This document shows, piece by piece, positions 3,675 through 63,989 of a DNA stretch of 64,000 nt. The position numbers and the translations under genes are program-made. The DNA is from Tubiluchus corallicola (lineage: Eukaryota > Priapulida > Priapulimorpha > Priapulimorphida > Tubiluchidae): the NCBI GenBank assembly GCA_030141605.1, contig JAQGDQ010000920.1, forward strand, positions 16,441 to 80,440. The letters run 5' to 3'. The notes beneath the pieces were generated by a model that saw nothing but the letters and a program-made list of their open reading frames with translations, did no database searches and was not told where the DNA came from. Every line of letters begins with the position of its first letter. Position 1 is the first letter of the stretch.

Positions 3675-3759
3675 ATAAGTCAGGAAGTACTTCGTGATTA
3701 CGATCGCTTGTAATAAAAGTTGTATTTAAGACAGCAGTCTCACGATCCAAGATCACAAG

Positions 3760-4647
3760 ATGGAATGCAGTGAGGACATAGTTTACAAATGCACTTCTTG
3801 TACTGAATGTTTTTTTACTGAAGAAGTCTTCTTTGCCCACACTCGTACGTGGCATTGTAAAATACTTGTGAATACAGGTCAGAATCCTCCCGGGTTTGAG
3901 GCACCTGACTCTACTTTCTCAAGCCTCTTTGAAGTGAAAGAAGAGCCAGTAATACTAGATGATGCATGGGGTAATGAAAATGATGGCAATATATCAACCG
4001 GTGCTATTAGCTACGACAAGAGTAACAGTCAGAAAGTTTTTGAAATGTCTGTAGTTGATGCAGGCGGCGTTTCTGCCTATAGTGATCCTTCTGGAAATTC
4101 AGTGATTTCTTTGACTTCTGATGTAGTGTGTCCAGTGCTTAGTTACAGAAGTAACTTTCTTGATGCTGACTGCCATAATGCAAGCGATGAAAGCATTGGC
4201 AATGATGTTCGGCCTAAATACTCTACTACATCACTACATTCCAAACAACATTCACAGGTGAATGCATTTGAAAAGTCCTTGCAACAGACTTGGCAGTCGG
4301 CCAGTGTGAAACAGAGCTCAAAGCAAAGATGCAAACAATTTCCAAGGATGTACAGTAGGCCACATCAGAAATCTACAAATTTTTCTATTTCGAGGAACCA
4401 AAGTTTTTCAGGCCTTCAGGCAGGGCCATTCATGAGCACCAGCAAGCAACAAATCTGGTATTGTAATTTGTGTTCATATCAGACCATACGTAAACCAGAT
4501 TTGACAAAACACGTTCGCACGCATACAGGAGAAAAACCTTTTTCTTGTTCTTTCTGTGCCAAAAGCTTCAGTGATCCGAGTCCATATTACAGGCATGTAA
4601 GGAAGTGTTCTCTGCGTTTCAGTAGTTCACATAGTGTAACAGATTAG
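3760..4647 (+). CDS. C2H2 zinc-finger protein A (295 aa, single coding exon)
   Basis: Likely nuclear DNA-binding protein. Finger 1 (about residues 7-30) reads YKCTSC, twelve residues, then HTRTWH, a canonical C-x2-C-x12-H-x4-H finger at the extreme N-terminus. A Ser/Gln-rich, low-complexity linker of about 200 residues follows, with a VKEEP motif that fits a SUMOylation consensus. Near the C-terminus finger 2 (YCNLC ... KHVRTH) and finger 3 (FSCSFC ... RHVRKC, a C2HC variant) are joined by the standard TGEKPF linker. The start is the first ATG in the frame and lies just before finger 1. A paralogue at 12420-13289 has the same order of parts; most codon differences between the two finger-1 regions are synonymous, so both look maintained by selection. 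I do not recognise a named orthologue. DNA target and role are unknown. Confidence 0.85.
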   Translation: MECSEDIVYKCTSCTECFFTEEVFFAHTRTWHCKILVNTGQNPPGFEAPDSTFSSLFEVKEEPVILDDAWGNENDGNISTGAISYDKSNSQKVFEMSVVDAGGVSAYSDPSGNSVISLTSDVVCPVLSYRSNFLDADCHNASDESIGNDVRPKYSTTSLHSKQHSQVNAFEKSLQQTWQSASVKQSSKQRCKQFPRMYSRPHQKSTNFSISRNQSFSGLQAGPFMSTSKQQIWYCNLCSYQTIRKPDLTKHVRTHTGEKPFSCSFCAKSFSDPSPYYRHVRKCSLRFSSSHSVTD

Positions 4648-12388: not shown

Positions 12389-12419
12389 ATAACCGCATTT
12401 TGGTTTACCTAATTAAGTT

Positions 12420-13289
12420 ATGGATATGGAGCCGCCGCTGCTTTATTACAAATGTACAGCGTGTGCTGAGTGCTTTCTGACGGAGGAAATATTCTTTGCT
12501 CATACTCGTACCTGGCATTGTAAAATTTTAGTGTGTGAAGGTCAAAATCCTGTTGTTGACACTATGTACATGTCTGAAAATGGTCATTTGTCAGCAATGA
12601 ACCACTGTGAAACACAGGAGTCTGTAAGTCATGCTGACTACAATATCACCATAAAAGAAGAGACTGATGACTTCAGCAATATTGTAAAAGATGAATATGA
12701 AAACGAAGATTGCGCGAAACGCGACGCTGATGATGGCAGCGATGACGTTGTAGTAGTAACACCTTCCTTCATTCCACCTGCTTCGTTTACTTCCGGTCAT
12801 TTGTCAGGAAGTGCACTGGTACCTTTAGCAGGTTGCAGCCGGGAAGCTGAGGAAGACAGTGTGGAAAAGAACCACGGTCAAGCGGAGATTGAACAGGACA
12901 TTAATTTTCCCGAGCAAGGGTTTTTGTCCAAGTGGCTACTGATGCAGCAGAATTCGAATAGTACCAGTTTTCTCTGCAGAAGTGGTCAACAAACTCGCAA
13001 GCAAAGGTTTTATAAGAAACCTGCAGTAAAACGGCGTATTAACAAGCCATTAAGATCAGCCAGCAACTCAACACCAGGAACACTTGGGCTGGTGAGTGTT
13101 AGTAATCAGAGACTGTGGCAGTGCAATACGTGCTTTTATCACACGAAAAGTAAACCTGATTTGATAAAACATGTGCGGTTGCATACGGGTGAAAAACCAT
13201 TCTCCTGTCCATTTCCAAGCTGTGAAAGAAGATTTAGTGATAAAAGCAACCGCAATAAACACGTTAAATCGCACACGCCCAAATACTGA
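12420..13289 (+). CDS. C2H2 zinc-finger protein B (289 aa, single coding exon)
   Basis: Paralogue of the protein at 3760 with the same plan. Finger 1 at about residues 10-33 reads YKCTAC, twelve residues, then HTRTWH, followed by CKILVCEGQNP. The acidic linker includes TIKEE (SUMO-type consensus) and runs of Asp/Glu. Basic stretches (KQRFYKKPAVKRRINK) come before the C-terminal fingers and could serve as a nuclear localisation signal. Finger 2 is CNTC ... KHVRLH. Finger 3 is CPFPSC ... KHVKSH, with four residues between the cysteines; unlike gene A it keeps the last His. The frame begins ATG-GAT-ATG, so residue 1 or 3 could start the protein. Finger 1 is the most conserved part between A and B at protein level while the codons differ silently. 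Function unknown; probably a transcription factor. Confidence 0.85.
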   Translation: MDMEPPLLYYKCTACAECFLTEEIFFAHTRTWHCKILVCEGQNPVVDTMYMSENGHLSAMNHCETQESVSHADYNITIKEETDDFSNIVKDEYENEDCAKRDADDGSDDVVVVTPSFIPPASFTSGHLSGSALVPLAGCSREAEEDSVEKNHGQAEIEQDINFPEQGFLSKWLLMQQNSNSTSFLCRSGQQTRKQRFYKKPAVKRRINKPLRSASNSTPGTLGLVSVSNQRLWQCNTCFYHTKSKPDLIKHVRLHTGEKPFSCPFPSCERRFSDKSNRNKHVKSHTPKY

Positions 13290-15785: not shown

Positions 15786-18140
15786 TGAGGTGTTCGTCCA
15801 CTTTACAGCTGCTTTTTTGGAGCTTTGCCATTTAAATAGCTAGTTGCTGATTTGCTAAATGATCGAGCGAATTGGCTCATTTTGCTTGGTTGGTTAGTTG
15901 TTTTAACTTTCTTGTCTTTTCTTTAAAAGCATTTTCTAATCTCTGACTAAGTTAGTGTAATATCACTACAGCAGCTGAATCATGTTAATTATAAAGTCGG
16001 TCGCTGTCGTGTTTTCCTGTGCAACATTCTTATTAACCGTGCAGGTAGCTCGGTAATCAGTAATGCTGTTTCTATGAGAAGCTGTGGGAAGAGGTTGCTT
16101 TCTCACTGTAGTCACGTGATTCATTCGAATCGATACCGACATGCTTCTTATCGATTTCAGGCTATTCCTCACCACATTTTCAGTGTCTTGCTGTTATTAA
16201 TTGTGACTCACATACGTATGCGAAATGTTAGTTATTTAGTGCTTTGAAATTGAAGTTAATTGCTTGCCGGAGGTAGATGTAGTGCAAAAACGTAACATTC
16301 AGTCTGAGTACTTTCACTCATTAATGACGGTAAGCCCGCTAATTAAGCCGGTATATTGTTACTTCTATGCTGATCTAATGAGTTGTTATTCAGCAAAGAT
16401 GATTTATATGTATGTATTTATGGCGCGTAAAACCAGAAATGTTTTTATCTGAATGCATCGAAAGTATGCTTGCCAGTTTTGGAGCTTTCATCGATATCGA
16501 CACACACTATGGGCTTAGTTATACAAAATTTAAATTACTATAATATATAGTACCAAGTGTAACAGATTGTACAAAGAAACTTTTAACAACTGGCGTACAG
16601 TTTTTATATTTAGGTTTCTCCGTGGATATAATCAATTTGTTCAGCATGCGTCATCGTTTTTCACAATTTTTTATTACTCGATTTTCTGAAAGCGTTAGTG
16701 GCGTATTACTGTACTAGGTACGATAATTAGCATTAATTAGCATGTTAATGGCAGCACGGTTTCTTATGCGTATGGTTTATGACTGCATGTTACAGACCAC
16801 TCCTGTTTTTTGTGTATCAATGATGTAATGATGTCTTAACTTAACTGACAGTTAAATTTGTAATTCTGCAGACTTGAAACGATTTAGTGACTGTAATGCA
16901 ATGCAATCCATATTAACACAAATTTTATTCTTAATTACAATTACAGTGACAGCAAAAAGCATAACGTTTCAAATTGAGTAATGCTATCATTTTTCTTGAG
17001 ATGCAAGAATAAGAAAGAAGGGCTGTGGGAGGAATGCATGAAATTACTAATTTTTAGGGAGCTTTTTTATATTAGGTCTACTAATTAGCACGCAAAGACA
17101 ATATTCACATTTAAAAAAAGGATACACTCACTTAGAAAAACACACACATCAAATAAGAACTTAATTGTATCTCACTTTATCAGGTACTGCAGTAGTGGTC
17201 AGTACTTGCCAGTAATTTCTTATTTAATCTTGATGTGTCTTTTCATGCAACTCTACTTTTTTGTGTGTGTTTTCTTGGTGTTGTGGGATTACTCCATTAA
17301 TTGGCACTAATCTTGTCACTATAAGAATTGAGTTTGCACTATTCAACTTTAATTTTACACATACAATATTAAGCCGTGAGTACCATGTGGTACACGTATC
17401 ACATTGGAACAGATCAGTAGAAATTAATACCCATGCAGTGTATATGCGAAGCTCGCTGAGGAAAATCTCTCATTTAGTTGGAAGCCACAGTCACCCAGTT
17501 TCTTTAAAGGACAAAAATTTGAACTAGCTAAAGTTGGAATTTCTATGTGATTTGCTACCAATGATTATTATTGACGTGATCAATGGGAAAAAGCAAGAAT
17601 TAATGCCAGATATCTTGACTTGTGGCTCCATAATGAAGTTGTACTTCAGTCAACCTGGCCGGTTTTAGTGCTTATTCAATGCAGCCTTCAAATTTCATGG
17701 TCCATCTAGAGTTCTTATTTACAATGCAGTAGTGTCATATTTTGAAGCTCAGTTAAAACCTGCAAAGTGATAAAATTTAGAGAAATTATTGGGCTCACCG
17801 TAGAGGTGTAAGAGGTGTAGAGGTGACAGGATACAGTTTTCTTTTTTGGCTTGCTCCTTTATGATGTGGATATATAGGAACCTGATAGAAATATTAGAAT
17901 AGCCGCTGCAAATCGCCATAAACCCACAATTAGCTGACAAGCCTGGTTCAAATAATACAGAAAAACACCAAATAAAACGGTATATGTGAATACAATTATG
18001 TACGTTAGTAATATTATTAAAATATATAATTATTTTACTTTATATTGCAGAATTTCCTCAATTTGCCCCAAAAATTATGTCTGAGCGAGTTAAGTGTAGT
18101 TCGTGCAAAAAAATTAAAGATGAATGCTTCCAAAGCTGAA
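15786..18140. other. Non-coding stretch
   Basis: No supported gene. Short open frames at 16264-16452 and 17261-17527 have no domain or splice context. No RNA gene seen. Confidence 0.4.
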
Positions 18141-18797
18141 GGTTTCCCGTCGTGCTTAATTGCGTTTGTTTACAAACACTGCGTGTTTTCTCACTTTCTA
18201 ATTTCAGCTTTCTGCACAAAATGTGTTAGGTGTAATGGTTAACCGGTCTGCCAGACTTAATTAGTAGGCCTACTTTTCTCTCTGTCCTGTGCTAGGAATT
18301 ATAATTTTGAAACTTTTACGTTCTGTAGACTAATTAGGCGCTATTACACTTTCGCACCGCCTAGCTTTTCCTGGCCTATTGGTTGTTTTCACGCCAGAAA
18401 GCAGACCAACAGGCGTAATATACACCATATTCCCATAATATTATTGCTGCGTACGCTTTATAAGTCCAGGTTTCCCGTCGTGCTTAATTGCGTTTGTTTA
18501 CAAACACTGCGTGTTTTCTCACTTTCTAATTTCAGCTTTCTGCACAAAATGTGTTAGGTGTAATGGTTAACCGGTCTGCCAGACTTAATTAGTAGGCCTA
18601 CTTTTCTCTCTGTCCTGTGCTAGGAATTATAATTTTGAAACTTTTACGTTCTGTAGACTAATTAGGCGCTATTACACTTTCGCACCGCCTAGCTTTTCCT
18701 GGCCTATTGGTTGTTTTCACGCCAGAAAGCAGACCAACAGGCGTAATATACACCATATTCCCATAATATTATTGCTGCGTACGCTTTATAAGTCCAG
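18141..18797. repeat. 328-bp tandem duplication, essentially identical copies
   Basis: The segment beginning GGTTTCCCGTCGTGC at 18141 is repeated from 18469; I saw no differences by eye. Each copy spans the flank, the 9-bp target site and the left end of the transposon at 18665, so the duplication arose after that transposon inserted. Identity this high means either a very recent event or an assembly artefact. Confidence 0.9.
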
Positions 18798-23960: not shown

Positions 23961-26900
23961 GTACGTATACAGTTTTGGTTATTTTTACAATTTTGTTTTA
24001 TGGAAGAATCATAATTATTACATTGTAAAGCATTATCTAACATGGGTGCTGCCAGAGTTTGAGAAATTGGACGCACAAGCAGCTAGGGGGTCTGTGAGCA
24101 TCTTCCTGCTTTTAAGCACATTTTGGAGGCCTCAAATGAGATCTAAACTGTGGTACATTAACTTCCTCAAACGAGAAAAATTCTACTTTTATAAATATAT
24201 TTTACCTACATTTACTTAGGTAATATTCATTGTATTCTATTGCAGTAGTCATATATCTTAAAGCAAGCTTCAAAGAAGTGTCCACCTGGAGTGTACGTGT
24301 GCTGTACTGATTCGTATGCACCGTGTGCTGTACTGATTCGTATGCACAGTGTGCTGTACTGATTCGTACGCATTGTGTGATAACTTTAGGGAATACTAAA
24401 AGATCAATTCTTCTTCAGAAGTTATCATACTTCACTGCAATGCATATCACCCATTACTTAAGCCTAATTCATTTAGTGTCAAGATTATCTACCCAACAAA
24501 ATGTGGGAAGTCAAACATAAAACTGATTTGAGACTGTTAAGTTTACAGCCCGCCCACTGTTCATACAAAATTTAATAAGTTTTGCCAATTTTTCCCACCG
24601 GACACAGCTAAATGGAATTTTACTGCATTTTAGACCATTTTGCGATTGATAGAAGCTATTTCCTCAGGAAAGTTCACTAGTTTAATACTCATTGTGTCAC
24701 CTCAAACTCGTGACTCATAATTTCACTACTACCGTGAAGGTGGGGGGGCAGCCCCTTGAACCTACCCCCTAAATGCAAAAGTGCAGTTACAGTTAGCTAG
24801 AAACTGTCTAGATAATGGAAATTGATAATAGAATCGACTATGTAAGTGATACACGAGCGACTTCACTATGCAAATCAGCTGACTGCTCGGGGATTGCGCA
24901 AATGAACAACCGTTGATGTTTAGTACTAAAAAACCTTCATTTACCCATTACCCATAAATATTTACCCTTAAGAAATTCTGTGGACACACATGCGTCAGCG
25001 CGTCCGCCTGTCAGTGCCCATATTAGCTAACTAGAGGAGTAAGAGGAAGCTTATTGTTGGGATTTGTTTGTTTTTATGGGGATATAATATCACTAATGGA
25101 AGGTCCTGCTGATGGGAATTCACCATTTGCTTGCCATAAATACATTTTTGAAAAAGTTTAGTACAGTTTACGTTTGACCTTAGCGAACCTTAGTGAAATA
25201 ATTAGTGTACTGATTGATCTCAAAATCTAACCCTTTATAAATGAACTATACCTAGTTTATCAGTGAAATTTCAATCTTTTTAGAGTGATGCACTCATGCT
25301 AGAAACTGTTCTTGCTCATGCACACGGAAAGATCAAACAGAGAATGAAATGTTTAGCTTTTATAAGTAATTTCCCTGATTAGTTTTCGTATTGTGCGACA
25401 CAATGATAACTACTGAAGAAGAATTGATCTTTTCGTATTCCCAAAAGTTAGCACACAATGCATACGAATCAGTACAAGCACACGATGCGTACGAATCAGT
25501 ACAGGCACACGGTGCATACGAATCAGTACAAGCACACGGTGCATACGAATCAGTACAGCACACGTACACTCCAGGTGGACACTTCTTTGAAGCTTTGTCC
25601 CGTAACGTGAGCATTTTGTTAGACATTCGTTTTTCTTGATCGATGAAACAGAAACTGGGAACATGCTCGAGTCAGCAGCGAAAACGAACATTGTCATTTT
25701 ATAAGCTCCTCAACATTTGACGATAATTGGCATTGAGATGTCACAAGATTACTGTGGCTTGGGGGCTGGTAACTAATTGGATGTATATTTTATCAACTTC
25801 ATGAGATTTTGAGTAAAAAACTTGTAACTATACCAGATTTTTTTGAAATGTGGTCTTTTCTTTGAGGCCTTGAAGCTTGGTGCTAACTGGGTGTATATTT
25901 TTTCAACTTCATGACATTTTGAGTAAAAAAACTTGTAACTATACTGGATTTTTTTGAAATCTGGTCATTTATGCAAGTTGTAATGGGGCTAAATATGCTA
26001 TAAGAATAACGTGGCATGTTGCCTAATACCCTCAAGGAGAATGTCCCAAAGTTTTTTATTCCTTAGGCCACAAAACATAATTGAATTAATATGCATATAT
26101 TCCTGGACATGTATTGATTTTGCACTTTTTCACTGTAGCCTTTAACTTGAATAGTCATTGGCTTTGTTTGGGGACAATTTGTATAAAAAAAACATTTGCA
26201 GTTAACTTATGTGTATGCTTTAGTTAGATTCTTTTAGTTACAGTGTTCTTTTATATTTTTCACTTCAGTTGAGTTGGTATTAAAGATACTATGATCGTCC
26301 TCCATGCTATACGACTCTAATTACACAAATTAATGAGCTGCAATTCATTAAAAGATATATAAAAAATTCGAATTGATTTTTATTTAAACTAGCCACTCTC
26401 TCGTATAAATGTCCAACATTAAAATCTTAAACATCTAGCAACCATAGTATCATATTTATTCTTAAATTATAAGTACGTTGAATAATTTATTATGGTACTG
26501 GTAAGATAGCTCCAGTCTCTTTAAACTACCCTATTATTGTGTTATTCACACTTGCAACACAGCCGACCCAGTTGCAGTTTGTTTAACCACAGAGTCAAGT
26601 GCACCGTTTTGCTGACTCAGTAACTCAAAGCTGTAAAATCTTCATATTCTTTTCTGTTAGCAAACATAATGTAATGCAGTAAAACAAATAACAAACCTCT
26701 TAATGCCTGTACAGCTTGTATTATGTGTGCCGCTCGATGAAGATTTTGTCTCGAAGGACACGTAATGACAAGTAGTACAATGCTCGGCGAAAAATTTATG
26801 TTGTCTGTCCCTGGGCTGTCCATTTACGTTAATGCTGCGATAATGCCTACATGCTTGGGAATTATTGGAAAAGTTCGTGCTGCCTGTTTTATGCTTTTAA

Positions 26901-32900: not shown

Positions 32901-35900
32901 AATGTTATTAATTATCTTTTCACAACAACAAATGTCAACAGTAGTTTATCACATTGACTGTGACCCCAACATATCTGTTATAATGATCTAAATATTGATA
33001 TTTTATACAAACAGGTAAGCTAAGTCTTAACATACCGTGGACCTCTCTCTACACTTCGCCGGTCATCGCTGACTTGGAAGAGGTATACGTCTTGGCCGCC
33101 CCAATAAGTGACCGCAAATATGATGCAGACCTGGAAAAACAGCTACTTCGTGCTCATAAACGCAGCATCCTGGAAAGCCTGGAAGTTGCTGCTCCAGAAA
33201 AAGAGGATCCCACATTTCTGGAAAAGCTTGTCACTACGATCACGAACAATCTACAGGTGTAGTTGTCTTTTTTCTGTTGTAAATGGTGATTTCTGTTCTA
33301 TACGCCATGCAAATACGAGTATTCTTATTTGTTCTAATAAAAATTTTTTAGTCAGGCCTTACGTTTACAACGGTGATACGTAATTCTGTGCACTATTTAT
33401 TGTAGATCTTCATTAGGAATATTCACATCCGATACGAGGACACGGTGACAGACAGGGAGCACCCAATCGCATTTGGAATCACCTTGCATAATCTGTCTGC
33501 TGAAACCACTAATAATAAATGGAAGCCAACTCAGCTAGACACTAGTGCAACTACAGTGTACAAGGTAAATTGTGGTAATCCGTGTGAAAGTCATGTTTGA
33601 GGTTGTAGTTCAACACTTTGTAGAAAACGAATAAAACACTGTACTACATATCTGCACAAAACTGAAAACGTTTATTAGACTACATACACATATGTAGAAT
33701 GACTGCTGCACTGCACTGAGAGTGTGAGTTAGACAGTGACTAGAAAGTAATTCCAGTCAGTATATATAGCTAGAAGTAACTATGCAAACTTGGCTTCGCA
33801 AAAACCATTACATTAAAATAGGGAGAGATCCAGTGAGTATGCATATTCACTGGACCGAACAATTATACTAGGGGTGAGTTTAGCTAGTAAAATGTAAAGT
33901 GATTAGTCAATAGATGGCAGCACCTAAAAATATACAGTTACAACTTCCACAATCCATGTGAGCATTGTAACAACATGAATATTGTAGCTGTGTAGCTATG
34001 TAGGGCAAACTAAAATAGATTTTATAATTTTGATGGTGTGGAAATAAAAATTTTGTGACTGGTACTGGAAGCTTTTTATTTTGAAGCTGTGCCATAATTG
34101 GGGGTAATACTATGCTTTGTCATTTTATTAACTAAATGTGGCACATTGACTTAACTGGCAAAACTGTTGTTAGTTTAAAAACTTTGTAACTAGATTTAGA
34201 GAAATTTATTGCTCAAGTAAATAGTAGGAGTATATTTTGTCTTGCACATTTTTAAAAAGCCTTGAATTATATGGAATTTGTTTACTTCAGAAGCAGTTTA
34301 CAATTCTCCGCACAATTTAAATACCCGAAGCCTAATCCCAACCCTAACCCCAGCTCTAACCCTAATCCTAATGTGGTTCAAGAACTGATTCGTTGTATGT
34401 GGGGAATTGTAAACTTTAGCCGCTTACTGCAAATACTGCAAATCATGTAAAGTTGTTGGTTATGAACAACTATGCCGTAATGAGTTGCCGGGTTCTTGTG
34501 TTATAAGTTTGTCGTTATCCTATCGCTAATTCCAGAACAAGCAATCTAAAACAAATTAGGACAAATACCCACTACGGAACGAATTCTGTAATCAAGCAAG
34601 CAATTCTACTATGGAATTCTCTCCCATTACAGGTTAAACAAATCAAGTCCCTATCAGCATTTAAAACAAAATTAAAATCACTAATATTAACCAGATATGA
34701 AATACCATCACAGCAGTACGACAACATACACACTAATTCAGAATTCATATATCCACGGCCATATTAATTAAATCATAACTTTTTCATTTTTTGTGCATAG
34801 TTGTAAATATGTTTGATTTTATTCGTCGTTACTTTCCATTACTGCACAGTAGTTTAGATTGCACTGACGCATTTGCCTTTAGCAGTGTAAGCTTTTATTA
34901 ACTATCACTGATTGATCATCTCTGTAAAGTATTTATCAGTGATTATCAATGTATTTTACTGGCAAATAAAGATTATATATATATAATAGTTAAGCACTTT
35001 TGTTTGGCTGTTGTAAAACTTTTAAATTATTAGCAGTGATTGGGTATTGGGTAATTTGTGACTGAGAGGTGAACATTTAATGTAAATTCACTTATATAAC
35101 TCATAACAGCTTACATGTCCAATTGTAATGCCGTTTCTTGTTGCGTGAGCTGCTAGTGTTCTATTAAACCTTGTGAATGCAAGCTACGGATAAATTACAG
35201 AATGTAAGTGACAGAAATTAATCATTTGTGTGCTTGCATACCAAAGCCATCCATAAGTCGGTATAGTTAAAACTGCATTATGGTGCTTCAAAGAAGAATA
35301 GCCCAAAAATTTTGTCAGTTTTTCGTATTTTGTAAATACCAATGCCAAATGTATTGGACTTTTATGTTTTAGCATCAATTTATCGAAAAAGTGTTCGAAA
35401 AACACTAAAAATTTAACTTTGTAGTTCCTTAACTCACTTTTCTGTCTAGAAACTAGTACTGCTATTGCAAAAAACTCCTATTTCCAAACTCCGATAGTAG
35501 CTCGTGGAAGCGGTCATTTTGCTGCATATTTTTTCTGTTGCCAAGCCCAGATCTTCGTCAGGAAGAGCCATCTACTGGATTTAAGCATAACTTCAATGTG
35601 TTTTTGCAAAGTCCTTAGCAACCAAAGTTTGCACGGCTGCTAAGTATTTTGTAGAGACGCGACAAAAAAAAAACAATGGCAAATTTTATCAGCGATTTTC
35701 TCAATATTATGTTTTTCGGTGCGTAGCTTGCACCTCTACTTCAACGTGGATTATCTCAGTTTAGAAATGACAGTGAGTGATCAACTTGGTACAAAAATGA
35801 TCCTCATGAAATGGAGATTAAAGATATGTGAACAACTAAAAAAAACTTAATTGCTGACTTATGGATGATTTTGTTATGCAAGCTCACATTTGTCGATGCA

Positions 35901-46800: not shown

Positions 46801-49800
46801 GATTTTATGGAGTTTTGCTATTCACTGCAACAGTGTGTGACTCATACATTGTATTGTAAGAATGTAATATTGTGTGCCTGCTTATCCACCAAGTGTGGAA
46901 TTGGTTATTGTGGAATTGAAAAGGATTAATTAATATGGTATCCGATATAACGTGACCTAAGACGGAGCAATTGAGCAAATTATGAAGATAAAAATGACAT
47001 AAAATAGATCAATTAGTAAAGGAAAGCTGTGTTAAATATGATTTTGATTAAATTGGTGATTAAATTATTAAATTAATAATTCAAGATTAAATGCTTGATG
47101 ATGCAAGATTAAACTATCGTCGTGGATAGAAGCCCAGTTAGATGTGGCTTCACATGATCAGCTGATGTTCGACCGGCTGATTCAGAAGTAAAAATTGATG
47201 ATGTAATCTTTATGCGCAGAAGCTCACGGGGCATTACGTAGTTAGACAAATGTGTTTTGAGGCTCGCACCTCGGGGGAGATTAGGAACTGACTTGAAGAC
47301 GGAGGGTTGGAATTACTATCCTCTTATATTTACCGTGTCGTGTTTGATATTTAATAAATGTGTAGTTTATTAAATAAAGTCTTGATAGTTTGCCATGCCC
47401 ATTGTGGCTACCTCACACGCAACGCAATAAACAACAATAATCAGCAAGCAGCATTAACCACAAGAATAAATAAACTTCAACCAAATTATTTTACTCAACT
47501 GGGTGACTGAAACAAGGTGACCAGGATTAAAAACAAGATACCCAGGGTGACAACAAACTAAAAATATTGGTTTTACCGAGTTTTCGCCTTCAAATTGTTG
47601 CATTTTATCTCAAATTCTGTATTTTTCTTTACTCGTTAGCACGCCGTGTCTGAAGTTATAGGCTTCTTCCAAATACCTAATCTACGCTTGTCTGACGTTA
47701 AAGCTGTAGCTGCAAGCTACGTGGAACAGGCAGCAACTTATACAAAAGCTGGTTTATTGCACGCTATACAATCACACAAGGTACAGTACTTGTAGTACAT
47801 TTTTATAATTCATTTATTTCGGTAGGTCTATCGATGTTAAGTTTATATATCTATTTATCTGGTGTTCTACATTGTTCTCATTCTTACCTATGTAATTTCT
47901 TCCAACTGTTGTTGTTACTTTACTGTAGACATGCTTCATCATACTTGTCATCACATGCTGATTGTTAATGTGTTGGAGGGCAACAGAAAAGTACAGTCTA
48001 AACTTGTAGTACAAGCAGGTCCTATTTCAGCCTAGGCGAGGCCCGGGGAAGTGGGGCGTGTGAGGCCCCATCGGGGGGCGAGCGCTACCATGGTTGGCGC
48101 CCAGAAAATTTTTGAACTGCTAGAATGCCAGAGAAGCATTTTCGAAGAGAAAATATGGAGTTATACAGTTGTTAAAGGAAAAAACAATTGAAAGAAAAAC
48201 TGATTTATTCTCAAGACCAGTCCTTAATACTTGTCAATACTGGCAAACGGCGTGCGTGCGGCAAGAGAGAAAGAGGGGGAGAGAGGAGGCAGTATGTTCG
48301 CATAAAACAAAAAAATATTACCTTGCCGCGAGGCCCCCCTGGAGGGCGAGGCCCCGGGGAAGTATCCCCACTTCCCCCCTTGAAATAGGCCCTGAGTACA
48401 AGCAGCAAAAATGGGATGAATCTAATCTAGGATGTATATATCTAATCTAGGATGTATCGGTAGTTAGTGTTATATTGGTAGATGTAGTAGTGCTTTTTGG
48501 TCTTAAGTAAGTCTAGGTTACTATAGGACCTCATAGATTACAAAGCTGAGGTAGTCATTAATGAGGGCAAATGTACTTGTTATAACAAGATCAATTTTGG
48601 TGTCGCTGCAATTTATTTTGCGCTATGTTAATCTTATTTTGGTCAATAATCGGGCTTTCCTTGTATTTGCAAATAAGCAAGCATCTTGGCCAAGGTACTA
48701 CGTTGTTAGATGTTCATAAGCCACAGCAAAAATTTGTTTTATGCCTGTTGCCAATTAATCACTGTACATTCTAACTATGTTCTCATTATTTTCTACTTGC
48801 TAAATGTAAACTAGAGTAAGTACATTTAACAGAATCGCATAAACATCGGCATATCTTATAAGTTCATTGATAAAAGACCACACGGTTGGGTACCGAGCAG
48901 TTACCATGGACTGTATTTTTCCAATGAACGGTACTAATATTGTCAACTTGCTGTCAGTATTGTCAAGTTTGGTCGCAAACTAACTAATGTGTGATGTTTT
49001 TTTTACAGACTGTTAACCTGTTAGTTGACATCAAGTCTCCATACTTAGTTGTACCAGAATATGGCACTTTGCAACAGTAAGTCGTTTTTCTCTTTTATGA
49101 TGACACGGTTTTTTAAATCTTTTTTGTTTGATGGTAGCAGTGCAAAAAATGACATTTAATGATTCCTTTTTATCACCACATGTTTGCTAAGTACAGGTTT
49201 GCTGACTTTATTAGAACTATGGTCGTAGTGCACTATAATATGTTTGCTTGCATAGCAATATCGTCCATAAATTGGCAATTAAGCTTTTATAGTTATTCAC
49301 ATATCCTGAATCTCCATTTCATGAGGATCAGTTTGATACCAAGTTCATCACTGTATGTTATTTCTAAGCTGTGAAAATCCACATTGAAGTTGAGGTGCAG
49401 GCTGCACACTGAAAAACATAATCTTAAGAAAAATGCTGTTAGAGTTTGCCATTGTTTTTTGTTGCGTTTCTGCAAACACTTAGCAACCGTACGAAAGTGT
49501 GGTTGCTATGGACTTTACAAGAGCACATTGGAGTTATGGTTAAATCCAGTAGATGGCTCTTCCTGACCAAGATCTGGTCTTGTCAACCGAAAAAACCCAA
49601 ATCAAAATGGCTGCTTCCACGAGCTACAATCGGAATTACATGATACAAGTTTTTTTTATAATTGCAGTACTAGTTTCTAGACAGAAAAGTGGCTAAGGAG
49701 TTATAAAATTAGATTTTTAGTAGTTTTGAACATTTTCCTGATAATTTGATGCTAGACTATAAAAGTACGATATATTTAGCATTTGTTTTCATAAAAAGCA

Positions 49801-52800
49801 AAAAATTAACATTAGACCAAAATTTTGTTGCATTCTACTTTGAAGCATCGTAACATAGTTTTAACTATACCAACTAATGGATGGCTTTGGTTTGCAAGCA
49901 CATATTTAACAATTTTCAGGGGTGGATCAGTAATAGTTGTTGACTTCGGCAGACTTCGTGTTGACAGCCAGCTACAGCCAAAAGATTCATCATTGGAGGT
50001 ATGTGTAATTAGCTTTATTATAACCAATTTACTTTCTCAAAATATACAGATTTGCCTTAGAACTTTCATTGCACATTTGCTTGAGAGGGTAATTGTAGCT
50101 GTGGCATCGTTAACTTCAGGCTCCCAGTTAATCATTAGGTTTCTCCTTTTCCTCTTCTTTCTACTTCTTCATCACCAGGGAATAAAGATTGCAGTTTCTT
50201 CAATAGCATTTGTGATTAGCATAGTAAGTAATGAGCTTTATGGAATTCTTGATGAATGTGCAGCACATTATGCGAACACGCAGTACGTCAGTTTAAGTAG
50301 GAGAATTGCTTTTGTGATTAAGTTTAGCTTGAAGGTCATCAGTATATATCAATTTTCTGTGAAATATAAATTCTTATTTTTTAGCATTTTGGCTGCTGAG
50401 ATATTGCTGAGATTAATGTCACCAGGTTGTTCTGCATATTGTTCTTGTCACACAAATTGACTCATCTCATGCAGTCGCAATATATGGCCTCCAATCAATT
50501 ATAATGCTATTTTAATGTACCTCTGTGTAAATTAAACATATACTGTGGTCGTTTCTTCTCCTCTTTTCCTTCTTCCTATCCCTAATCTTACTATTTTCTT
50601 TCCATTCCGTCAAGTCTACTAACCCTAACCATTCTTTCATTCACTCATCCTCCCCTTCCTTCCTTCTTCCTATCCCTAATCTTACTATTTTTTTCCATTC
50701 CATCATGTCCACTAACCCTAACCATTCTTTCATTCACTCATCCTCCCCTTCCTTCTTTCTTCTTATCCGTAATCTTACTATTTTTCTCCATTCCGTCATT
50801 TCTACTAACCCTAACCATTCTTTCATTCACTCATTTGCGCCACCCTAACAAGTCAAGCTTTCAAGGTGTCATACATTAACTCTTTTATTTGGTTAATTTG
50901 ACTTCATCAACGTTTTTTTACCTATACTGTTTCATTTTGTTTCAATAATATTGTATGTTGATGTATTGCATATGTATTGCTGGAGTGAAATAAATTGATT
51001 GATTGATTAATTAATTGATGATTGATTGATAGATAGATTGATTGATTGATTGAGATAGATTGATAGATTGATTGACTCATCATCAGTGCACAGGAATTCA
51101 TGGCGTTTACACTTCTTTAGAATTTAATGTCGTGTTAAAGATAATTAAGGCAGGTACTTTACACCTGCATGTTGATTGGCTTGCTGTGGTTTACAGGATG
51201 CCACGATGACTGAGGTTGAGGAAAGAATGTATGATAAACTGAGCGTGAGTTTAAGAGGTCTTCAGGTTCTGTTTGCTGATCCTGGTAAGTTGACACCATT
51301 TCCAATTAATCAGTAATTTGTCCAATTAGTAGTTTCAGTTGCATATATTTTAATAACTTTTTTTTAATAAATGATAAATATTTTTCATTTCCAGTCATAA
51401 TTAGGTAATTAAGATATTTAAGATTGTAACTGATATCAGTATGATTACATAAATACCTCATGTACAGAAAAAGTGGAAATTTCTGCGACTTGACACTTTG
51501 CACAAATTGTCATTATACTAGACCACATTACTCAGTAACTCTATTAGACACTTTGCACAAATTGTCATTATACTAGACCACATTACTCAGTAACTCTATT
51601 AGACACTTTGCACAAACTGTCATGATGCTAGACCACATTACTCAGCAACTCTATTAGACACTTTGCACAAACTGTCATGATGCTAGACCACATTACTCAG
51701 TGACTCTATTAGACACTTTGCACAAACTGTCATGATGCTAGACCACATTACTCAGTGACTCTATTAGACACTTTGCACAAACTGTCATGATGCTAGACCA
51801 CATTACTCAGCGACTCTATTAGACACTTTGCACAAACTGTCATGATGCTAGACCACATTACTCAGTAACTCTATTAGACACTTTGCACAAACTGTCATGA
51901 TACTAGACCACATTACTCAGCGACTCTATTAGACACTAGCTCTGTCAGATGCTAAATGCTCATTATAAACAGTTTGCAAAACTGCCTTAATTGAAAACAC
52001 CATTGTTTGGGCTTTTAAAAACCAAATAGACATTCGAAGTTTTGATTAATTAATTTTGCTCTTTCTTGTCTTTTGTTCCCAAAAACATGACATTCCATCT
52101 AAACAATAAAACGTGTATGTCAAAAAACTACCAATAACCAAAAGATCAATAATTATACATAATTTAGCAGTTTTTACACTATAGCATTGCAGTAACTTTT
52201 GACTAATTTGTAATTTAACTAAATAACTAATTTTAAAAGTAATAAAATCATGAGCTTTCAAAACACACAACACGACAATATTTTAATGCCTTATAAATTG
52301 CCTTGTGTTCGCAAAATTCAGTCCACTCAACCAGATCAGGCCTGATCATGTGATCTGGCCTAAAATTGCCACAAGGTGGCCTGAGCAGACAACAAGAGAA
52401 GGCTGCTAAGTATGCTAAATTTCCATCACAATCATATTGTAGTGAATTTTACATTATGTGACTGAACTAACAGGACTAATGCAAAATTTATGATTTTTGC
52501 CTCAATGTTTTTTCTACTTTAGGTGCTGATTGGCATACTGCGCAGCTAGAGCAAGAAACAGAGATGCATATTGTACCTTACATGAATGTGCAAGTCAATT
52601 TATTCAACAGCATACGTCAAGATTATACAACCATGCCAAAGTAAGCTTTTGTCATGATGCTGATTTTACCAAGGCACAAAAAACCCTTACAAGATCAACA
52701 GAATGCAAATTAAGTTATTTGTATTCAAGAACAGCAGTAATAACATCGGCAGCAGACATCTGAGCAGAGAGCTGTAAAATACGTGAATGAATTTTACCTT

Positions 52801-61804: not shown

Positions 61805-62019
61805 GTAAGGGGCACATTTCTAGTTGATTATTCTAAGTCTGATTTTACTAAACAATTGGTATGTCATGCATGATTTAAATAAATATTATGCCAATAAATT
61901 TCAGCTTTTATTACTGATCGGCCTCGATCCACTATTTTATGAATTCACAAAAGATACAACTATTTGAAAGTTTGCAAATATGATTTCTTGCGTTTTTTAG
62001 AACCTCAATATATAATTTT

Positions 62020-62921
62020 GGCTAAAGTTTACAATTCCCCACACACAACAAATTAGTTTGTGGGTTTAGAAGTGCTTTAGGCTTAGGGTTAGTGTTGGGA
62101 TTAGGGTAGGGTTATGGTTAGGGTTAGTGTTAGAGTAGGGTTGCGGTTAGGGTTAGGGTTAGGGTTAGGGTAGGGCTATGGTTAGGGTTAGGGTAAGGGT
62201 ACGGTTGGGCTTCGGGTAGGGTTAGGGTAGGGTTAGGGTTAGGGTTAGGGTAGGGCTATGGTTAGGGTTAGGGTAAGGGTACGGTTGGGCTTCGGGTAGG
62301 GTTAGGGTTAGGGTAGGGCTATGGTTAGGGCTAGGGTAAGGGTACGGTTGGGCTTCGGGTAGGGTTAGGGCTATGGTTAGGGCTAGGGTAAGGGTACGGT
62401 TGGGCTTCCGGTAGGGTTAGGGTAGGGTTAGGGTTAGGGTTAGGGTAGGGCTATGGTTAGGGTTAGGGTAAGGGTACGGTTGGGCTTCGGGTAGGGTTAG
62501 GATAGGGTTAGGGTTAGGGTAGGGCTATGGTTAGGGCTAGGGTAAGGGTACGGTTGGGCTTCGGGTAGGGTTAGGGTAGGGTTAGGGCTATGGTTAGGGC
62601 TAGGGTAAGGGTACGGTTGGGCTTCGGGTAGGGTTAGGGTAGGGTTAGGGTTAGGGTTAGGGTTAGGGTAGGGCTATGGTTAGGGTTAGGGTAAGGGTAC
62701 GGTTGGGCTTCGGGTAGGGTTAGGGTTAGGGTTATTGTAGGGCTATAGTTAGGGCTAGGGTAAGGGTACGGTAGGGCTTCGGGTAGGGTTATGGTTGGGG
62801 TTGGGGTTAGGGTAGGGTAGGGTAGGGTTAAGGTTAGGGTAGTGTTATGGTTAGGGTTAGAGTTAGGGCTAGGATAAGGGTTAGGGTGTTTTAATTATGT
62901 GGGGAATTGTAAACTCCTTCC
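62020..62921. mobile_element. TIR element with telomere-like (TTAGGG-type) body, copy 2
   Basis: Left end GGCTAAAGTTTACAATTCCC and reverse-complemented right end GGAAGGAGTTTACAATTCCC share GTTTACAATTCCCCACA. The octamer ATAATTTT flanks the element exactly on both sides (62012-62019 and 62922-62929). The body, 62085-62890, is degenerate TTAGGG/TAGGG repeat with a higher-order unit containing GGGTACGGTTGGGCTTCGGG. No open frame of note. VPS13 intron 23. Confidence 0.88.
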
Positions 62922-63555
62922 ATAATTTTGAACTTTTAAAAATTCTATTATGTATTTTGATAACTGAAAAAAGTGAAAGATACACTGAGTAATGGTTTTA
63001 TACTTGCGAAATGTTTCATTTAACATAACTTCTGTTTCAAGGACCATTAAGTGTCATAGAAACTTAATAAAAACAGTTTTGTGTCTAACACTTTTCAGCA
63101 CTTTTAAATTGGTTTGGTTGAGGATTTTTGTTCACTAAATAACTGAAATAGTTTGTTGTAACAATATAACTTATAATAGTTCAGTGTGTGTTTTGATTAG
63201 CTTAAGTTAACATACCGTTCTTACCTGTAAGATGGTGACATCTGGCTTCAATATTAGCATCCTAGTTTTAAATACCTGTCATTCAAATTTCAATGTATTC
63301 AAAGCAGTGATGACGTGTTGACAAATTTTCTGTGTAATTCACTTAATCGTAATCGATCTTTTGATAAGAAAGGAGTTTATTTAACGGGATTTATATATTT
63401 CATTCCAGATAGAATGTATAATTTGGGAAATGGCATCTCAATACGTATCAAATATAAAGTGAAATGATGAAAGGGCTGTAATGATGGTGCACGAACAATA
63501 AAATGTACTAAGCAGTTCTCGACTTTGTTTGTTTGTTTGTCACCATACAGATACA
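62922..63555. other. VPS13 intron 23 between two telomere-like arrays
   Basis: AT-rich, with a GTTTGTTTGTTTG run before 63540. No exon recognised. Confidence 0.4.
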
Positions 63556-63989
63556 ATTAGGGTAGGGTAGGGTTAGGGTAGGGTTAGGGTAGGGTTATGG
63601 TTAGGATTAGGGTACGGTTGGGCTTCGGGTAGGGTTAGGGTAAGGGTAAGGGTTAGGGTTAGGATTGGGGTTGGGGTTAGGGTTAGGGTTGGGGTTGGGG
63701 TTAGGGTTTGGGTTGGGGCTGGGGTTTGGGTAGGGTTGGGTTGGGTTAGGGTTAGGATAGGGTTATGGTTATGGTTATGGTTAGGGTTAGGGTTAGGGTT
63801 AGGGTTCGGGTTAGGGTTAGGGTAAGGGTTAGGGTAGGGTTAGGGTTAGGGTTCGGGTAGGGTTTGGGTGCGGTTGGGGTTGGGGTTGGGATGGGGTAGA
63901 GTTAGGGTTAGGGTTGGGGTTAGGGTTCGTGTAGGGTTAGGGTTAGGGTTAGGGTGTTTAAATTGTGTGGGGAATTGTAAACTCCTTCC
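63556..63989. mobile_element. Telomere-like array with right end of the same TIR element, copy 3
   Basis: Degenerate TTAGGG repeat, including the GGTACGGTTGGGCTTCGGG higher-order piece of copy 2, ends in GTGGGGAATTGTAAACTCCTTCC exactly like copy 2. The left GGCTAAAG end is missing, so this copy is truncated or its left end has diverged. Confidence 0.8.

Follow-up and report, generated by a model that had tools for sequence, protein, structure and literature searches.

The DNA analyzed here, hereafter called the window, is a stretch of 64,000 nucleotides of Tubiluchus corallicola contig JAQGDQ010000920.1 (G000:C2329:16441-80440). Positions given without a contig refer to this window, whose last base, 64000, is also the end of the contig. 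Positions 62020 to 62921 hold what is very probably one copy of a family of non-autonomous, MITE-like DNA transposons whose two 24-bp ends can be told apart and whose core is of the TTAGGG type. This copy (copy 1) begins with an exact left end of the L type (GGCTAAAGTTTACAATTCCCCACA, 62020-62043, plus strand), which is followed by a left subterminal region (62044-62076, plus strand) and by a degenerate TTAGGG-type array (62077-62887, plus strand). The array includes 47 TTAGGG hexamers and has a higher-order unit, whose marker GGTTGGGCTTC occurs eight times at a spacing of 52-86 bp. A right subterminal region (62888-62897, plus strand) leads to an exact right end of the R type (62898-62921, minus strand), which reads GGAAGGAGTTTACAATTCCCCACA when reverse-complemented. 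Profiles of the two ends match at 62020-62062 with 53.2 bits (L) and at 62921-62877 with 51.0 bits (R), and both ends start with GG when read inward.

The initial annotation described this array as enclosed by inverted repeats and by an exact 8-bp duplication. The duplication is as described, with ATAATTTT present on the left flank (62012-62019) and again on the right flank (62922-62929), and an 8/8 match at the spacing of copy 1 is found for 0.016% of random window pairs. Taken alone, the flank repeat of this copy could be read as 9 bp, but the signal in the family is 8 bp. The description of the inverted repeats holds in part. Ends of 24 bp are indeed present and agree at 20 of 24 positions, but identity is restricted to the inner 17 bp, with four of the seven outer bases being different. 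This 17-mer core has five matches in the window at up to three mismatches, versus 0.29 expected. With both of its 17-mers and its duplication intact, copy 1 is among the better-preserved members of the family.

Two relatives had been pointed out in the same window, and both are real. Copy 2 is a complete 133-bp element in reverse orientation (34289-34421, minus strand) that has the same two distinct ends, with the R end at 34289-34312 and the L end at 34398-34421. Its two TTAGGG hexamers are oriented relative to the ends as in copy 1. The flanks of copy 2 match at 2/8 positions when the boundary is fixed and at 7/8 once its ends are moved by 1 and 2 bp, although chance alone produces 7/8 or better in 2.8% of cases if shifts of up to 2 are allowed. 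Copy 3 has a TTAGGG-type array (63557-63955, plus strand), in which the copy-1 markers GGTTGGGCTTC and GGCTTCGGGTA recur, and a right end of the R type (63966-63989, minus strand) that scores 58.4 bits and lies 11 bp from the end of the contig. The end profile gave no left end for copy 3, whose left flank shows no similarity to that of copy 1. We therefore rejected copy 3 as a complete element and regard it as a truncated or cut copy, given that the window end is also the contig end. The GGCTTCGGGTA variant is common to all three copies and recurs in the right end at another genomic locus (L052).

Elsewhere in the window, scans with Rfam (at the gathering threshold) and for tRNAs over the 64 kb gave no match. 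A Pfam search with the three plus-strand frames of 52.0-61.9 kb yielded nothing at an E value of 0.01, and among seven window frames searched with Pfam, only C2H2 zinc fingers rose above the cut-off, in one frame. A PDB search with one window frame gave no match. The frame with zinc fingers (3730-4647) is related to a second open frame (12417-13289), in which the same families fall below the cut-off. Both carry the FFAHTRTWHCKIL motif near their start, and they are perhaps tandem paralogues. Other repeats in the window include a 93-bp minisatellite of 2.9 copies (50566-50834), which has CTAACCCTAACC in its units and lacks a family end, a 328-bp unit in tandem duplicate with 100% matches (18140-18797), and a long inverted repeat (24265-25595) with arms of 65 bp (100%) and 74 bp (93%) that overlaps minisatellites of 26-27 bp.

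The family was sought in the assembly to which the window itself belongs (343.5 Mb, 2344 contigs), in which pattern counts are lower bounds and the reversed pattern of each search served as the control. The exact 17-bp core occurs at no fewer than 360 places. At up to three mismatches, the 24-bp left end was found at a minimum of 826 places (85 exact) and the 24-bp right end at a minimum of 766 places (63 exact), and each reversed control gave 0. The left and right counts overlap in part, with 10 of 63 exact-core ends lying within three mismatches of both patterns. The initial annotation had proposed a family with these ends and had named two outcomes that would speak against it, namely a scarcity of other copies and the confinement of the ends to chromosome-terminal repeats. 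Instead, the ends number in the hundreds, and many copies lie deep within contigs, as with those at 303-879 kb of contig C147 (1.44 Mb).

For closer study, we took the first 63 exact-core places among the 100 listed of the 360, which fall in 60 regions. Forty of these regions were 5 kb in length and 20 were 0.8-1.1 kb, the latter being too short for the longest elements. End profiles were built from 41 left and 36 right sequences, and none of their scores in reversed sequence reached 8 bits. At 12 bits, a left-right pair was found in 53 of the 60 regions, and the remaining seven were unpaired. Removal of two extra copies of an identical 85-bp body left 52 distinct end-sampled elements, to which we added two from the window and three from repeat-sampled loci for a set of 57. 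Two members of this set, both from locus L022, form a tandem duplication and are not independent. Lengths in the set range from 85 to 1117 bp, with 47 elements at 101-205 bp; 51 of the 57 are no longer than 300 bp (median 145). Thus, the family has the features expected of MITEs in that its members are short, have terminal inverted repeats and a target duplication, and are represented by hundreds of ends. Short, hexamer-rich bodies leave little space for a gene, and the family elements are presumably non-coding.

The family appears to be mostly old, since the 47 partner ends, which had not themselves served as exact seeds, depart from the copy-1 type on average at 4.1 of 24 positions; this mean leaves out ends that have decayed beyond recognition by the profile. 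Local growth is also evident. At L022 (2301-2668) a whole family element is duplicated in tandem, and at L052 (approximately 2407-2820) a single right end precedes four consecutive left ends, spaced 87-100 bp apart; both are cases of tandem growth of the family. Separately, an identical 85-bp element with common flanking 8-mers occurs in L012, L015, and L071 (G000:C2, C14, and C457), and exact left ends lie at one and the same coordinate, 160163, in contigs C457, C628, and C2254. These coincidences suggest redundant contigs or a larger repeat.

Tabulation of the flanking 8-mers bears out the 8-bp duplication as a trait of the family. Across the 57 elements, eight positions stand out, and at every one of them the two flanks are identical in 34-38 elements. 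The four preceding positions give counts of 20, 12, 5, and 12 of 57, and the six that follow give 9, 10, 13, 21, 19, and 14. Because identity is raised at exactly eight positions across the family, the 8/8 match of copy 1 belongs to a family-wide 8-bp rule. Thirty elements match at 6/8 or better, 20 at 7/8 or better, and 10 at 8/8, versus 0.92%, 0.07%, and 0.012%, respectively, for shifted flanks of the same elements. When only the 52 end-sampled elements are considered, the corresponding numbers are 29, 19, and 9. Copies lacking the duplication had been named as a further outcome that would count against the proposal. On this point the duplication holds as a family rule, but 27 of the 57 elements, copy 2 included, match at fewer than six positions. 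Age and small indels may account for these low matches.

With the left end placed first, the bodies of the 57 elements together hold 350 TTAGGG hexamers and not a single CCCTAA, while shuffling the letters of the interiors yields 11.5 TTAGGG on average and 21 at most. At least one TTAGGG is present in 54 elements, and the other three have neither TTAGGG nor CCCTAA. The first hexamer has a preferred phase. At the right junction 41 of the 54 show it, and at the left junction 32 of 54 do, where one sixth would be expected. Furthermore, a 29-bp right junction, TTAGGGTATTTAAATTGTGTGGGGAATTG, recurs at 642 or more genome places at up to three mismatches (38 exact; control 0). Among the 51 short elements, TTAGGG is the commonest core hexamer (172 counts), although the core is degenerate and GGATTA-type variants lie close to the left junction. 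Five of the six elements longer than 300 bp contain 21-56 TTAGGG, and the sixth (L056, 679 bp) contains only 2.

Given the one orientation, the preferred junction phase, and the recurrent right junction, most copies seem to derive from a founder in which hexamers were already present, and separate additions by telomerase would explain them poorly. Long arrays look mostly like expansions in place, because long elements are few and mostly rich in TTAGGG. The proposal that the array moved as a unit is therefore sustained by the fixed ends, the 8-bp duplication, the single orientation, and the junction phase.

The identity of the transposase is the point at which our reading departs from the initial annotation, which had suggested a hAT- or P-like enzyme acting in trans. 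Duplications of 8 bp are typical of both superfamilies, and the 8-bp signal is confirmed in the family. The ends of hAT elements usually begin with CAG or TAG, and those of P elements begin with CA. However, among the 63 exact-core ends, whose choice did not depend on their terminal bases, 44 begin with GG and 19 lack it; CA is found at one of the 63 and TA at two. The commonest outer 7 bp are GGCTAAA (14/63) and GGAAGGA (9/63). In the 20 elements with duplications of at least 7/8, GG is present in 13 left and 17 right ends. The consensus of the end profiles is no independent evidence for GG, since it was made from ends filtered for the outer bases of copy 1. An element moved by a hAT or P transposase would be the same kind of mobile unit, but given its termini this attribution is unlikely. 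MULE-type elements with GG ends may also be candidate movers.

A Merlin-type transposase fits the ends better. The Merlin superfamily, as described in PMC8101967, is distinguished by inverted repeats from 24 bp, 5'-GG termini, and target duplications of 8-9 bp. Copy 1 has all three features. Because the GG found at most termini and the 8-bp duplication agree with this description, we prefer Merlin over hAT or P, and, judged by these sequence features, the family probably works like a Merlin MITE. Under this model, a trans-acting transposase, in all likelihood a member of the Merlin (IS1016/IS1595-like) superfamily, would recognize the shared 17-bp core, cut at the GG termini, and insert the element with an 8-bp stagger.

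The initial annotation also called for a full-length element with the same ends and a transposase. The Merlin domain (PF12762, DDE_Tnp_IS1595) is found at seven places in the assembly, two of which are in bacterial-looking sequence, and none of the seven is linked to family ends. Within the 3.2-3.4 kb around each place, there was no family end at up to four core mismatches, and three core matches with 5/17 mismatches are at the level of chance. The visible edges of the animal-like Merlin elements differ from the ends of the family. One of these places, L034 (G000:C763:23352-23750), has an open frame of 363 aa with an IS1595/Merlin domain, and its DNA is approximately 90% identical to parts of L033 and L036. 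Frames of up to 202 aa exist in three unpaired loci and in L031 (L014 and L023 contain N).

TTAGGG is the telomere motif of most animals, and interstitial telomere repeats are usually taken to be scars of chromosome fusion or products of telomerase-assisted break repair. We therefore also approached the matter from the repeats themselves. The (TTAGGG)4 sequence has at least 181 matches in the genome, and the 100 that were listed form 29 clusters. Twelve of these (L079-L090), the last among those listed, were chosen regardless of ends. At 7 of the 12 places there is a family end that scores 12 bits or more and includes the inverted repeat. The end counts correspond to approximately one end per 216 kb, at which density approximately 1% of 2.4-kb stretches would contain one by chance. 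Both ends are found at L079, L084, and L088, a right end at L081 (at 13.6 bits the weakest) and L083, and a left end at L086 and L089. The other five places (L080, L082, L085, L087, and L090) have no such end; L082 is cut by the end of a contig, and at L085 the match, of 9.3 bits, is confined to the array portion of the right profile. Two further listed clusters, in contigs C44 and C403, sit in elements that had been found by their ends and were left out of this comparison. Interstitial TTAGGG-type repeats within end-sampled regions include L020 (C44, near 424.9-426.0 kb of 462 kb), with 56 TTAGGG, and L042 (C147, near 790.8 kb of 1.44 Mb), with 4. These data agree with the earlier suggestion that the family seeds interstitial telomere-type repeats.

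Some (TTAGGG)4 arrays in this genome probably have origins other than the family. At L090 (G000:C1553:910-1017), a perfect TTAGGG array that lacks family ends grades into AAGGTT-type hexamers. Contig C1672 has a CCCTAA array at 1818-1913 and a TTAGGG array at 47503-47598 (G000 coordinates), both of which are perfect and have the orientation expected of two chromosome ends. The (TTAGG)5 sequence is also present in the genome, but its reversed-pattern count is large.

Several accounts of how TTAGGG came to lie at these sites can be weighed against these observations. Deposition by telomerase or break repair, or survival from chromosome fusion, would explain TTAGGG at internal sites, and for arrays without family ends, such as those at 5 of the 12 (TTAGGG)4 places, this origin stands. 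As an account of the elements themselves it is very improbable, for it is opposed by the fixed ends, the 8-bp duplications, the one orientation, the junction phase, and the hundreds of copies. Moreover, the absence of CCCTAA means that no head-to-head arrangement exists inside any of the 57 elements; the initial annotation had likewise argued against a fossil fusion. An equally improbable notion is that the copies spread within larger duplicated segments rather than by transposition. The flanks common to L012, L015, and L071 and the tandem duplications at L022 and L052 are what such spreading would produce, but elsewhere the flanking 8-mers vary between elements and tend to match within an element.

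A more serious alternative is that the core resembles telomeres by coincidence, having been born inside the element as a hexamer microsatellite that was never telomeric. We hold this to be quite possible, though doubtful. Its commonest hexamer is exactly the animal telomere motif, which speaks against coincidence, but the degeneracy of the core and the GGATTA-type variants near the left junction are consistent with it, and MITE-borne microsatellites of other motifs have been described (as covered in PMC9659126). In the reading that we favor, a single founder element would have gained a short run of TTAGGG, either captured from a telomere or grown out of a hexamer that arose by chance, and transposition would then have scattered this run. 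Some arrays could later have lengthened in place by slippage or unequal exchange to give higher-order repeats as in copy 1. We consider the chances evenly balanced that one capture of telomere repeats made a Merlin-type MITE the chief vehicle by which interstitial telomere repeats spread in this genome, with hundreds of oriented inserts, some of which were later expanded in place to kilobase arrays.

If the capture reading is true, then internal TTAGGG is the footprint of a transposon and is no evidence of chromosome fusion. Internal TTAGGG in this genome need not mark fused chromosomes, and a transposition route for interstitial telomere repeats is backed here by ends, target duplications, and copy number. 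A simple screen can precede any use of interstitial repeats in karyotype arguments, which is to check for ends and an 8-bp duplication. Hundreds of oriented inserts also offer material on the timing of array expansion, on array stability, and on the influence of arrays on breakage.

Known systems share parts of this arrangement. The MoTeR retrotransposons of Magnaporthe are mobile, contain telomere-like repeats, and can leave internal telomere sequence, but they are telomere-dwelling retrotransposons, unlike the inverted-repeat elements with 8-bp duplications described here. Xmix and Xstir of Xenopus reportedly differ from the family in having other ends and a non-telomeric motif. As here, the Xmix MITE/Xstir system involves a MITE that carries tandem repeats and seeds simple repeats at new sites (Hikosaka and Kawahara 2004, as cited in PMC6947457 and PMC9659126). 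In Lepidoptera, too, a short-motif array is moved inside a MITE-like element, where (GTCY)n microsatellites hitchhike (Coates et al. 2011, as cited in PMC9659126 and PMC6947457), the motif being GTCY rather than TTAGGG. PMC9659126 and PMC6947457 describe repeats carried by MITEs in Xenopus, moths, and bivalves. The CMITE of corals, as presented in PMC2872659, is similar to the family in that it is a MITE of approximately 100 bp with a conserved interior that forms tandem arrays, and it is estimated at about 1600 copies; unlike the family, it has TTAA duplications and is linked to piggyBac. Merlin elements differ from the family in encoding a transposase, but PMC8101967 reports tandem repeats inside certain Merlin families and suggests Merlin as a spreader of proto-satellites; its text has no word starting with "telomer". 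A MITE with a TTAGGG body had no report in the literature searched, which was covered mostly at the level of titles and abstracts with few subscription journals and makes this a weak negative. MITEs with tandem repeats are thus already known, and, as far as these searches reach, the body of telomere hexamers is the new part.

Two minor observations concern viral contigs and bacterial-looking sequence. Possible relatives in viral contigs were rejected as chance matches, because the three loci with an exact 18-mer all have the same surrounding sequence and contain 0-1 TTAGGG. At L032 (G000:C2335) and L035 (G000:C827), matches to IS1595-type transposases lie among bacterial-looking genes, and these are perhaps bacterial contigs in an animal assembly.
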